Assembly: GCA_027972325.1 (NCBI GenBank)
Contig: JAPMOS010000005.1
Span: 491,001 to 555,000 of the forward strand
Source: Paratrimastix pyriformis
Taxonomy: Eukaryota; Preaxostyla; Paratrimastigidae
Length of the DNA: 64,000 bases
Reading direction: 5' to 3'
Within the stretch, counting starts at the first letter, position 1, and each line of letters opens with the position of its first letter. Below the pieces are notes generated by a model. The model worked only from the letters and a program-made list of their open reading frames with translations, searched no databases and was not told the DNA's origin. Below are positions 29,301 through 46,800 of the stretch, piece after piece. The position numbers were made by a program, and so were the translations under genes.

Positions 29301-32300
29301 GACCTCATCCCATAATGTTACCGGGGAAGTGCCGGGTAGAAGAGGACGAACCAGCATGCGCTGTGTCGAGGCGGCGGCGGTCAAGTTGCGCGACTTGACC
29401 AAGCGGCCTGGCAGTGGCTGTCCCGCGCTGGCGGCGGCCCCGGCCGCAGTGGCCGAGCCGGCGGTGCTGGGGGCCGGAGGGAGGCTGGCGGGCATCGGGG
29501 CGGCGGCGGCGGCGGCGGCGGGGCTGGTGGTTTCCTCGGAGGCGTCGATGGAACCCGGGCCGCCGGGGGTGGGGGTGGGGGTGGCGATGACCGGGGTCGG
29601 TGCCTGGATGGAGGAGAGGAAGGGGAGTGAGTGAGTGAGGAGGAAGGAGGAGGTTGGATGATTGCGATGATGATGGCTGAAGTCTGATTGATGATGACGA
29701 CTAAATGATTGGATGATTGGATGATGATGATCTGGAAGATGATGATCTGGAAGATGATGATCTGGAAGATGATGACTGGATGATGATGACTGGATGATGA
29801 TGACTGGATGATGATGATGATGATGACTGGATGATGATGACTGGATGATAATGTTGATGATAAAGAGTTGGATGATGATGACTGATGGTGACGCCGACGC
29901 CGACGCCGACGCCGACGCCGACGCCGACGCCGACGCCGACGCCGACGCCGACGCCGACGCCGACGCCGACGCCGACGCCGACGCCGACGCCGACGCCGAC
30001 GCCGACGCCGACGCCGACGCCGACGCCGACGCCGACGCCGATGATGGTGATGATGATGATGCCGAGGCAGCCACGGACATCGACTGTGGTGAGGAGCAGC
30101 TCGAGACACTGGGCCTCGTCGATTCGCCACAGGGCGAGGATCTCCTTGCGGGACAGCTCGGCCAGGTCGGACCAGTGCTCCCGGATGGAGGCGAAGACCT
30201 CCTTCAGGCCCAGCTTGACCTGAAGCCGGAAGGCCTCCGCATGCTGGTTGTTGTGCTGGTGGCTGTGGGGAGGAGGGGAGGAGGGAGACCAACATCAGCA
30301 TCACCGTCCACCACCGCATCAACATCAACAACATCATCCGATCGGCAACATGAACATCATTCGATCATCATCATCATGCTGACTGTTGTGCTGGTGGCTG
30401 TGGGGAGGGGAGGCAGGGCGGGGAGAGAGTGCGAATTCGCCCTCATCCAATCATCCAGTCATCATCGTCCACATCGTCCACATCATCCAATCATCCTGAT
30501 CCAATCATCATCCAACCAGCATCGTCAGCGTCATCATCAATCATCCTCGTGGTGAGCCAAGGGGCTGATCCGCGTGGGGTCTGACACGTGGAGTGGCACG
30601 GGATGGTGATGGGGTGACGGGTGACGGACAGCAGGATCTTGGTGATGAACATTTGAAACATACTGTGTGCATCGAGGGCATGGGATGGAGATGGTACGGA
30701 CAGCAGGATCTTGGTGATGAGCAGTTGGGTGACAAACTCCGTGGCGGGGGCGATCAGGCCGGCGAGGAGCGCCTCCACAACCGCCGGCTGTTTCTCCAGC
30801 ACCTGGATGGCTGTGGGTGCATGGAGGATGGATGGAGGGTGAGGAGAATGAGGACGATGCAAGCACCTGGATGGCTGCGGTCCCGCATCGCATGGAGGGG
30901 GGGCAAGGGGATGGGGAGGGTCAGGCGGAGGAGGAGAGCGATCGCAATCACCGAAGGACCGGAGTCAGCCAATCTCTATCAGCACAGCCAACTCAGACCC
31001 GCTCCACCGGCACAGCCAGCCAGAGACACAGACAGCCAGCCAGGCATCGCCAGCGACCCACAGATTGGACCGCCATCAGCACAGCCAGAGACACAGACAA
31101 CAAGACGGGACCGGAGTCAGCCAGCTCAGACCCGCGCAGAACCACCACCAGCACAGCCAGGCACACAGAAAGACAGCCAGGCATCGCCAGAGACCCACAG
31201 ATTGGACCGCCATCAGCACAGCCAAGCCAGCATCGACAGACAGCCAGGCAGGGGACACGCCCGAAGACGGACCGGAGTCAGCCAGCTCCGACCCGCGCAG
31301 AATCTCGACCAGGGCCGAGAAGTGATGCGCCGTCTGGTGAGCTTCATCCAGCCGCTGCTGGAGCAGCCCGATCTCCTGCCTCAGGAGAGGCAGCAGGGAC
31401 TGGGGCTGCAGGGCTTTGGCACGCTGGGTCTCACCCGAGGAGGACCCACACGAGGCCAGGAAATCCTGCTCGGCTTGGTCGAGATCGCCCAGGGCTGAGT
31501 CGACCACGCGTTGGGTGGTGACGGGGGCAGCGGGGGTGGCGGTGGCGGTGGCGGGGGCTTGCTGGAGGCGCTGGAGGCGGCGTTTTTGGAGGTCGATGAG
31601 GAAGGTGTAGCGGCTCTTGAGGGCAGTTACGCTGGGGTGGGAGGGGATGATGATGATGATTGGATGATGATTGGATGATGATTGGATGATGATTGGATGA
31701 CGATTGGATGATGGTTGGATGATGATTGGATGATGATTGGATGATGATGATGACGACGACGATGCGAGGTTCTGGACGGTGCCCACACCTCACGCATTGA
31801 TGATTGATTGATGATGATGATGATGATGATGATGATGATGATGATGATGATGATGATGATGATGATGATGATGATGATGATGATGATTGGATGATGATGA
31901 CTGGATGATGATGGTGATGATGATGACAAGTCAGGCGAGCTCGCTTCGTTAGGCTCTCAATCTGGTGGCTATCTCCCCGGGGAAGGGTTGACCTGGAGTC
32001 GACCGCGACCATCCTGCGGTGATATGGCAGGGTGGTCCGAACGACTGGTGAGGTCGCCGTCCTTCCCCGACCCGTTTGAAATTTCGACCTTGGTGGCTAT
32101 CCCCCCGGGGAAGGGTTGATCGGCGGCCGGTACCGACCACGGTTCGCTGGATTTATGGGTCCCTCCAGCGAACGGTGAGGTCACCGGCCTTTGCCAACCA
32201 CTTTGAAATTTCGACCTTGGTGGCTATCCCCCCGGGGAAGGGTTGCCCTGGAGTCGATCGCGACCACCCTGCGATGATAGGGCAAGGTGGCCCGAACGAC

Positions 32301-43800: not shown

Positions 43801-46800
43801 AGGTCGAAAATTCAAACAGGCTCAAACGGGTCGGGGAAGGATGGCGACCTCACCAGTCGTTCGGGCCACCTTGCCCTATCATCGCAGGGTGGTCGCGATC
43901 GACTCCAGGTCAACCCTTCCCCGGGGGGATAGCCACCAAGGTCAAAATTTCAAACAGGCTCAAACGGATCGGGGAAGGATGGCGACCTTACCGTTCGCTG
44001 GAGGGACCCATAAATCCAGCGAACCGTGGTCGGGACCGGCCGCCGATCAGCCCTTCCCCGGGGGGATAGCCACCAAGGTCGAAATTTCAAATGGGTCGGG
44101 GAAGGACGGCGACCTCACCAGTCGTTCCGGCCACCCTGCCATATCACCGCAGGGTGGTCGCGGTCGACTCCAGGTCAACCCTTCCTCGGGGAGATAGTCA
44201 CCCGATTGAAAGCGTAACGAAGCGAGCTCACCTGACTTGTCATCATCATCATCATCATCATCATCATCATCATCATCATCATCATCATCATCATCATCAT
44301 CATCATCATCATCATCATCATCATCATCATCGCCATTCCTCCTCATCACCACGCACCGATTGCCACACTGACACCGCCCTCCCCACTTCTTCCTTGCTCC
44401 ACACCAGCTGCGCTGCGAGGACATCTGGTGGGCCGACCTCCGTGGCCTGTACCCGCGCACGGGGATGCTCTACTTCTGGGACAATATCGACGACTCGGCC
44501 CCGGGGAGGGTCACCTACGTCCCACCGGAAGCCACCGCCGATCTGAGTCCGGCTTGACCGACTTGACGTGTGTGTCTTGACGTATATCGTATGTGTCTTG
44601 ACGTATGTCACACCGGAAGCCACCGCCGATCTGAGTCCGGATTGACTGACTTGACATGTGAGTGTCTTGACGTATGTGTCTTGACGTACGACATGTCTGT
44701 CTTGACGTACGATGCGTATGTGTCTTGACGTACGATGTATGTGTGTCTTGACTTACGATGGATGTGTGTCTTGACGTACAATGTGTGTCTTGACTCACGA
44801 TGTATGTGTGTCTTGACTCACGATGTATGTGTGTCTTGACTCACGATGTATGTGTGTCTTGACTCACGATGTATGTGTGTCTTGACTTACGATGGATGTG
44901 TGTCTTGACGTACGATGGATGTGTGTCTTGACTCACGATGTATGTGTGTCTTGACTTACGATGGATGTGTGTCTGGACGTACAAGGTATGTGTCTTGACG
45001 TACAATGTGTATGTGTCTTGACGTACAATGTATGTGTGTCTTGACGTACAATGTGTGTCTTGACTCACGATGTATGTGTGTCGTGACGTACGATGGATGT
45101 GTGTCTTGACTCACGATGTATGTGTGTCTTGACTTACGATGGGTGTGTGTCTTGACGTACAATGTGTGTCTTGACGCACAATGGATGTGTGTCTTGACGT
45201 ACAATGTGTTGACTCACGATGGATGTGTGTCTTGACTTACGATGTATGTGTGTCTTGACGTACGATGGATGTGTGTCTTGACTCACGATGTATGTGTGTC
45301 TTGACTTCACGATGTATGTGTCTTGACGTACGATGGATGTGTGTCTTGACTCACGATGTATGTGTCTTGACGTACGGCATGTGTGTCTTGACTTCACGAT
45401 GTATGTGTGTCTTGACTCACGATGGATGTGTGTCTTGACGTACGGCATGTGTGTCTTGACTTCACGATGTATGTGTGTCTTGACTTACGATGTATGTGTG
45501 TCTTGACTCACGATGGATGTGTGTCTTGACTTACGATGGATGTGTGTCTTGACGTACGGCATGTGTGTCTTGACTCACGATGTATGTGTGTCTTGACTTA
45601 CGATGGATGTGTGTCTTGACGTACGATGGATGTGTGTCTTGACGTACGATGGATGTGTGTCTTGACTTACGATGTATGTGTGTCTTGACTTACGATGGAT
45701 GTGTGTCTGGACGTACAATGTGTATGTGTCTTGACGTACGATGTATGTGTGTCTTGACTTACGATGGATGTGTGTCTGGACGTACAATGTGTATGTGTCT
45801 TGACGTACAATGTGTATGTGTCTTGACGGACGATGGATGTGTGTCTGGACGTACAATGTGTGTCTTGACTTCCGATGTGTATATGTCTTGACGTACGATG
45901 TGTATGTGTCGTCTTGACTTCCGATGTGTATATGTCTTGACGTACGATGTATGTGTGTCTTGACGCACGACGTACATCTTGCCGTTGAGGTTCGATTCCC
46001 GCCGCCCTCACAGTTTTTTTCCCCGGTTGACGTCCAAGACCTCACCCATCCTGTCTTCTTCCTCCTCTCAGGTGCCATGCGACTGACCTACCCGCCACCC
46101 TACGATCGCACCCAGGGCTGCCCGCCCGATCTCCTGCCGATGTATGTTGTCCGGGGGTTCTACCCGCTGCCCCTGAAACACATCCAAATGCCAGTCAACC
46201 CCATCGAGGATGATGATGCTGATGATCAGCTTGCGCAGAAGATCCGCGAGCGGTACTGGAATCCCGCACAGGACATGGTTTGTATGCGCCATCCTTGCAT
46301 AGGACACGGTTTGTGTGCATCCTTGCACATGACACGGTTTGTATGCACATCCTTGCACATGACACGGTTTGTGTGCATCCTTGGGTCAGGTTTTGTTCTC
46401 TCCCCGACCCCGTCATGCCACCGCCGCCATGCTTCCCCCACCCCCACACAATGGGTCCAAATTCCCCAAAATTCATCCCAAAATTCATCCCAAAATTCAT
46501 CCCAAAATTCACCCCAAAATTGATTCGAGACTCATCAATACATTCTTCTCCGGTTCCCACAGAAGTCCTTCGTCCTGCCGCCCCTGCCTGATGTGGACTG
46601 GAGCTCCGGCGCCACCACGGGGGATGGCGACTGTCTGGGGGATCTGCACTATGTCGGCATCGAATTGGAAGATGAAGACGGCGAGGAGAAGGAGGCTGGC
46701 GAGGACGAGGACGAGGCGGAAGAGAAGGAGGATGAGGACGAGGAGGAAGAAGACGAGGAGGACGGTCTGTGAGTGTCGTGTGTGTCGGGTGTGTCGTGGT

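Follow-up and report, generated by a model that had tools for sequence, protein, structure and literature searches.

The 64-kb stretch of Paratrimastix pyriformis DNA analysed here (the window, C441:491001-555000 of a 56-Mb assembly in 495 contigs) carries two copies of a 1.36-kb element belonging to a dispersed mobile family, which has spread recently and targets arrays of the triplet TGA. The initial annotation had singled out two near-identical inverted copies, and both are indeed present, with cores that we place at 31927-33286 on the plus strand (copy A) and 42886-44239 on the minus strand (copy B). A search of the whole assembly for the consensus revealed numerous copies sharing both the ends and the TGA flanks, which supports a targeted mobile element.

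A dispersed family in TGA arrays

Pattern scans of the assembly, allowing up to 3 mismatches, found 160 left ends and 124 right ends (complete counts), and the reversed-pattern controls for both ends gave 0 matches. Exact left ends, defined by a 22-base word, number 155 and fall into a T type (77) and a C type (78); the first-unit motif occurs 154 times. A DNA search with the element itself returned at least 78 matches, with the best 40 of 177 candidates scored. Positions refer to the first 100 places in each of the left-end, right-end, partner and first-unit scans. On this basis 65 of 100 left ends have a listed right end, 59 of them at 1200-1750 bp; the other six pairs are three short copies (273, 1081 and 1095 bp), one copy with a nested terminal inverted repeat (TIR) element, one with a nested short interspersed element (SINE) and one mis-pairing. 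The long left-right distance at L069 corresponds to two neighbouring copies. Fourteen of the 35 left ends lacking a listed right end were fetched: 11 reach a right end after 1094-1485 bp, and the remaining 3 are a 121-bp internally deleted copy, an assembly gap and a contig end. Altogether, 75 of the 155 exact left ends were read across 1.1 kb; for 61 more a right end is known from position alone, and 19 have neither a read body nor a positional right end, 3 of these at contig ends. At the right end C39:14605, the left half falls in a gap. Most of the 73 measured copies span 1.1-1.6 kb, the extremes being 121, 269 and 1895 bp. This survey is anchored on left ends and the copies read were partly picked as best scorers; the flank and run statistics below require a recognisable right end (up to 5 edits), copies without one being dropped.

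Insertion is confined to one phase and one orientation of the array. With both ends read, the left junction is TGA in 71 of 74 copies, and the right flank begins with TGA in 68 and with TGG in 3. TGA at both junctions fixes the phase at A^T (TGA^TGA). The flanking 60 bases consist of TGA repeat to at least 30% on the left of 70 copies and on the right of 66 (both out of 74), a level reached by 4.8% (TGA) and 4.1% (TCA) of random 60-mers from the window outside both elements. TCA on the element's sense strand averages 0.0 in the flanks of the 74 copies, and the orientation is thus fixed as well.

The two sides differ in the length of the array. On the left, the uninterrupted TGA run has five or more units in 67 of 73 copies, exactly five in 10, three or four in 3, one or two in none, and zero in 3, which are mutated junctions. 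On the right, runs range from 0 to 38 units with no minimum, and 23 of the 73 copies have 0-4. The simplest reading of this one-sided minimum seems to be that about five TGA units travel with the element as its left end. A copy on C223 has a left run of exactly five, and the TGATCATGTTGATGT minisatellite that forms its right flank contains no TGA run longer than 2, while the right flank of L059 contains one or two TGA per period; these flanks favour carriage of five units over a target requirement for five. In L047, L061, L076 and L088 the element is followed immediately on the right by unique DNA, and L047 and L076 vary at the junction by a few bases. The copies show no visible target duplication, but a 3-bp duplication of TGA would be masked by the arrays. 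The initial annotation left open whether the element targets TGA arrays or is carried with them. Targeting fits better, with 22 TGA/TCA array clusters in the window against 2 elements, and about five units seem to be carried along.

The spread is recent. Identity between nearest neighbours has a median of 99.4% over about 690 bp, and two pairs on different contigs are identical; we take the lowest nearest-pair values, down to 0.66, to be misaligned bodies. Whole-copy pairwise identity is 87.6-99.9% (median 93.8%, 60 copies). Two neighbouring copies on C234 are separated by exactly (TGA)5 and are 98.0% identical, so they look like two insertions and not one tandem product. A local inverted segmental duplication of host sequence, suggested only by the two inverted copies in the window, is hardly credible and we reject it: copies lie on many contigs and their flanks are unrelated, the masked flanks of 74 copies yielding only 5 matched pairs, all of them neighbouring copies or other repeats.

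Some copies have themselves received other elements. A tRNA-like (tRNA-derived) SINE is nested in L073 (C212:266300-268800), flanked on each side by TGGAAG and carrying a TCTCTC tail; the sequence of its 3' part, GCAAATACACAGCATGTCTCT, is found again in the vicinity of other family members (L019 and L075). In the copy L067/L072, an element of about 1.25 kb (C223:285252-286502) is Tc1/mariner-like; its long inverted repeats read ACAGTCCCCGGCATAAATACTTGGACA, and a TA duplication flanks it.

Anatomy of the element

The features of the two copies in the window are as follows.

31915..31926, plus strand: TGA units on the left of copy A, 4 intact and preceded by one GGTGA; from the sequence and the left-run statistics, probably the element's own left terminus
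31927..33286, plus strand: core of copy A, CAAGTC...GTAGAA, 1360 bp
31935..31944, plus strand: left-end palindrome GCGAGCTCGC; GTGAGCTCGC in 77 of 155 exact left ends
31964..32470, plus strand: four tandem units with a GGTGGCTATCNCCCCGGGGAAGGG-like core at 127-138 bp spacing, with inverted repeats within the units
32551..32559, plus strand: promoter-like box TATATAAGG
33075..33210, unstranded: hairpin-forming stretch (by fold z) with a perfect 14-bp stem, 33091-33104 / 33184-33197
33245..33269, plus strand: right-end hairpin CCGAAAA...TTTTCGG, 17 nt before the right end
33270..33286, plus strand: right terminus TATTTATATATGTAGAA; opposite strand TTCTACATATATAAATA
33302..33706, plus strand: TGA array on the right of copy A
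42521..42885, minus strand: TGA array on the right of copy B (TCA on the plus strand)
42886..44239, minus strand: core of copy B, 1354 bp
44240..44329, minus strand: TGA array on the left of copy B (TCA on the plus strand)

Both cores begin with CAAGTC and end with GTAGAA, and TGA units abut them directly. The direct TGA/ATC border first described is thus found at both copies, except that copy A has TGGTGATGG on its right before the regular array. From the left, the element consists of TGA units, CAAGTCAGGYGAGCTCGCTTCGTTA with the palindrome, a short leader and the tandem units, mostly spaced at 127-138 bp; then come an AT-rich spacer, the TATA box, about 730 bp without coding signal and a conserved last 300 bp ending in TATTTATATATGTAGAA. 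The four internal units of the initial annotation were recovered in copy A, with cores starting at 31964, 32092, 32219 and 32357, but at the spacing given above and not at about 120 bp. Across 72 copies, 1-6 unit cores were detected per copy, which is a lower bound since diverged cores escape detection. The box likewise stands in copy A and differs in copy B, where it reads TATATCAGG. Column conservation reaches 0.98-0.998 across the final 300 bp or so. In this best-conserved part, the stretch 33075-33210 forms a strong hairpin (fold z -4.64 on the minus strand and -2.36 on the plus strand), whereas the right-end hairpin is not significant against shuffles (z -1.32 and -0.85). Hammerhead core words were not found in copy A, nor was covariation between tandem units (100 distinct units, covariance term about zero).

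Judged by eye from splice signals, both copies appear to lie antisense in introns, in agreement with the initial annotation. Copy A would be inside a minus-strand intron running from GT 33745 to AG 31632, and copy B upstream of a plus-strand acceptor, AG 44406-44407. This antisense placement may be a mere consequence of array polarity.

No coding signal emerged from the five open reading frames (ORFs) tested in 60 aligned copies. A 245-aa ORF is open in 5 of 57 copies. An ORF of 111 aa on the minus strand, at 32818-33150, is the one most often open, in 51 of 59 copies; in 22 of 59 its length is no multiple of three, and its variants show no third-position excess (13, 15 and 11 per codon position). 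The element was said to lack a protein domain, and Pfam gave nothing above cut-off on the five ORFs, the two matches, DUF6212 (E 0.12) and HAM1_C (E 0.021), being far below it. In the window no Rfam family reached its gathering score; with E values of up to 5 allowed, the interval 31800-33400 gave 13 matches, all far below cut-off, namely 12 C/D small nucleolar RNA models lying on TGATGA and one microRNA model. The exact left-end pattern had no match in viral and prokaryote contigs. The family can therefore be called undescribed only within the reach of Pfam, Rfam and the exact left-end scans in these two collections, with Repbase not covered.

Possible mechanisms of movement

We tentatively favour a non-autonomous family, (TGA)5-CAAGTC...GTAGAA, moved in trans by a DNA-level machine of the rolling-circle HUH, Helitron-like kind. 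The transposition machine would nick (TGA)n arrays between A and T, and the element would be joined at the nick in one orientation. (TGA)5 would belong to the element and match the target, none of which would be duplicated. An HUH protein would recognise the ends and copy the element through single-stranded DNA, and slippage or recombination during copying could shift the number of units. In Helitron terms, the 5' end would be that of the strand beginning TTCTACATATATAAATA, and the 3' end would be CTGACTTG(TCA)5.

HUH transposases carry out single-strand transfer at a sequence common to the end and the target. The one-sided target-like terminus, the fixed phase, the absence of a visible duplication and the end-to-end copies together point to single-strand transfer or to recombination at a shared sequence. 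One rival is a Crypton- or DIRS-like element with a tyrosine recombinase, in which the (TGA)5 junction would recombine with (TGA)n arrays. It would account for the lack of a visible target duplication, the fixed orientation, the homology between junction and target and the end-to-end copies, but copy A has no terminal inverted repeats, and we consider it improbable.

A lead towards an HUH protein comes from contig C74. The two Helitron_like_N matches found are one locus, C74:48159-48583 on the minus strand, and a family right end (C74:52268-52294, plus strand), adjoining TGA, is 3.7 kb away from this Rep locus. No exact left end and no exact first-unit motif occurs on C74, the places listed for the first-unit motif being complete as far as C377. 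Reversed, this right end would have the Rep gene in sense, 3.7 kb inside, although this is a lead only. By our own post hoc estimate, one of about 130 right ends would lie on the fitting side of a single locus, no more than 5 kb away, with a chance of about 1%, which is lower still for a right end without a left half.

Several points weigh against a Helitron-like machine. The C74 region may hold a decayed ordinary copy, and its Rep matches fall in two frames. Another right end without an exact left half, C57:430809, is on a contig with no Rep match, so such ends also occur without a Rep gene. The terminal CTRR is absent: the reverse strand ends in CTGACTTG(TCA)n, and CTGA is not terminal. Inverted repeats of the Helentron type were not found between the ends of copy A, the nearest being a 14-nt, 79% pair well inside. 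Neither end folds significantly better than shuffles. A single Helitron_like_N locus stands against many reverse transcriptases (best 150 of 904 candidates scored), and a 3-bp TGA target duplication is possible. Since both the CTRR and the Helentron-type repeats fail, we do not file the family among canonical Helitrons or Helentrons. Some terminal features can be read either way. On the reverse strand, right ends begin with TCATTCTACATATATAAATACCGAA in 45 of 72 copies, and the others differ in the first bases, most of them keeping TC; this TC at the Helitron-type 5' terminus is also part of the TCA target. The palindrome GCGAGCTCGC adjoins the Helitron-type 3' end, which against shuffles gives z +1.81 and +1.67.

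An autonomous partner was sought through the ends of the element. No left end with a different continuation was found, with a pattern that passes only about a quarter of unrelated continuations. The right-end partner pattern gave 114 matches, and family copies also pass it, as its spacing is off by two; 75 of 100 listed matches came with letters, and 2 of these 75 (C8:102823 and C112:273376) are not clearly family. An undescribed superfamily, carrying its own target (TGA)5 and entering triplet arrays by homology in fixed phase and orientation, thereby consuming and seeding microsatellite, seems to us unlikely.

The main rival to Helitron-like mobilisation is a retroelement read in the reverse direction, which we regard as possible but rather doubtful. 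Its RNA, ending in (UCA)5, would prime on TCA arrays and would depend, as SINEs do, on a long interspersed element (LINE) resident in the genome for its mobilisation. The ends suit target-primed reverse transcription: the (TCA)n tail has a floor of about five units, and the opposite end varies slightly. Reverse transcriptases are plentiful in the genome, the LINE in the window having RVT_1 at 9579-11312. According to PMC4640811, LINE clades with a restriction-like endonuclease include microsatellite-specific families. Yet no simple 5' truncation appears among the 75 of 155 tail ends read through 1.1 kb, where the short copies are internal deletions, and elements of 1.1-1.6 kb that contain tandem units do not resemble SINEs. 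The reverse strand has two B-box-like words but no A box, and a TATA box located at the presumed 5' end would be missing from the RNA copy.

Two further candidates were rejected on the structure of the ends. With tandem units ahead of a TATA box and about 730 bp behind it, the copies resemble U3-R-U5 and could on this ground be solo long terminal repeats (LTRs) of a retrotransposon whose integrase prefers TGA arrays. As stated in the initial annotation, no LTR-like end pair exists: TG...CA ends are absent and the right end is GTAGAA. Moreover, a one-sided TGA minimum does not fit a 4-6-bp duplication, and with TGA in the right flank of 68 of 74 copies no complete element enclosing an internal region was observed, so that solo LTRs are very improbable. 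A Mutator-like element (MULE) or miniature inverted-repeat transposable element was discarded because copy A, again as first annotated, has no detectable terminal inverted repeat.

Neighbouring elements and known systems

Other mobile sequences and arrays occupy the window. The LINE extends over 8900-12236 on the minus strand and has a downstream ORF with an RPDI...LDLVVAEP stretch, which looks like a restriction-like endonuclease and has no Pfam match. A DDE_Tnp_1_7 transposase, presumably piggyBac-type, lies at 22881-24624 on the plus strand, split over two overlapping ORFs, the second part being below the Pfam cut-off; it adjoins a partial RVT_1 ORF at 21215-22849 on the minus strand. TGA/TCA runs of at least 4 units (42 TGA and 31 TCA) cover about 2.3 kb of the window between 141 and 63051, and TTGGA words are interspersed in these arrays, for example TGATGATTGGA. 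A helicase-like gene (AAA_11, AAA_12; 15676-18398, minus strand) has TGA/TCA arrays at 15935-16293.

Intronic triplet arrays look like a safe harbour for the element, and new arrays may themselves be seeded by it. A minimum of five units that is sharp and confined to one side offers a testable handle on how the element recognises a microsatellite, and in so young a family it could be possible to catch intermediates.

Comparison with known systems shows partial likeness to several of them. SaTar elements and Micron of plants are non-autonomous MULEs (PMC5907723) that occupy (TA)n and other microsatellites. Like our family, they are non-autonomous, measure about 0.4-1.9 kb, have microsatellites on both sides and lie side by side uninterrupted, and SaTar insertions are described as inconsistent with plain cut-and-paste (PMC5907723). 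Unlike it, they have terminal inverted repeats, and many of their families include members with 8-11-bp target duplications outside the microsatellites; the TGA family yielded neither a terminal inverted repeat nor a duplication of this kind. In Medicago, TA arrays are described as host to a Mutator-like family. Helitron-like elements reportedly disrupt (GAAA)n microsatellites of Lepidoptera, to judge by the title of a 2010 paper by Coates.

The oyster HINE/Helentron elements share with the TGA family their non-autonomous nature, the lack of a visible target duplication, a central array of tandem units, a palindrome near one end and a short microsatellite that is part of the element (PMC7492417). 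They differ by subterminal inverted repeats, of which copy A has none, and by a preference for TT sites, the target here being TGA^TGA. FoHeli1/2 of Fusarium, non-canonical Helitrons, likewise start with TC or TTC and have hairpins near both ends, but they have asymmetric terminal inverted repeats, end in ATTTT and insert after TNAT (PMC5148889), before A in the text and before T in a figure legend; that text makes no use of the word microsatellite. Replitrons are defined by direct terminal repeats of 5-11 bp, a target duplication of 2-8 bp and an HUH gene (PMC10741241), and TGA at both ends of our family would mask such repeats and duplications. Togen, found in (TG)n, and other microsatellite-specific LINEs are similarly confined to one microsatellite (PMC4640811); they are retrotransposons, whereas the TGA family has no coding signal in the ORFs tested. 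Literature searches, none of them aimed at TGA by name, found no published (TGA)n-specific family, Repbase not being covered. In summary, element families that target microsatellites are already known, and a TGA-specific family is a variation on this known theme.

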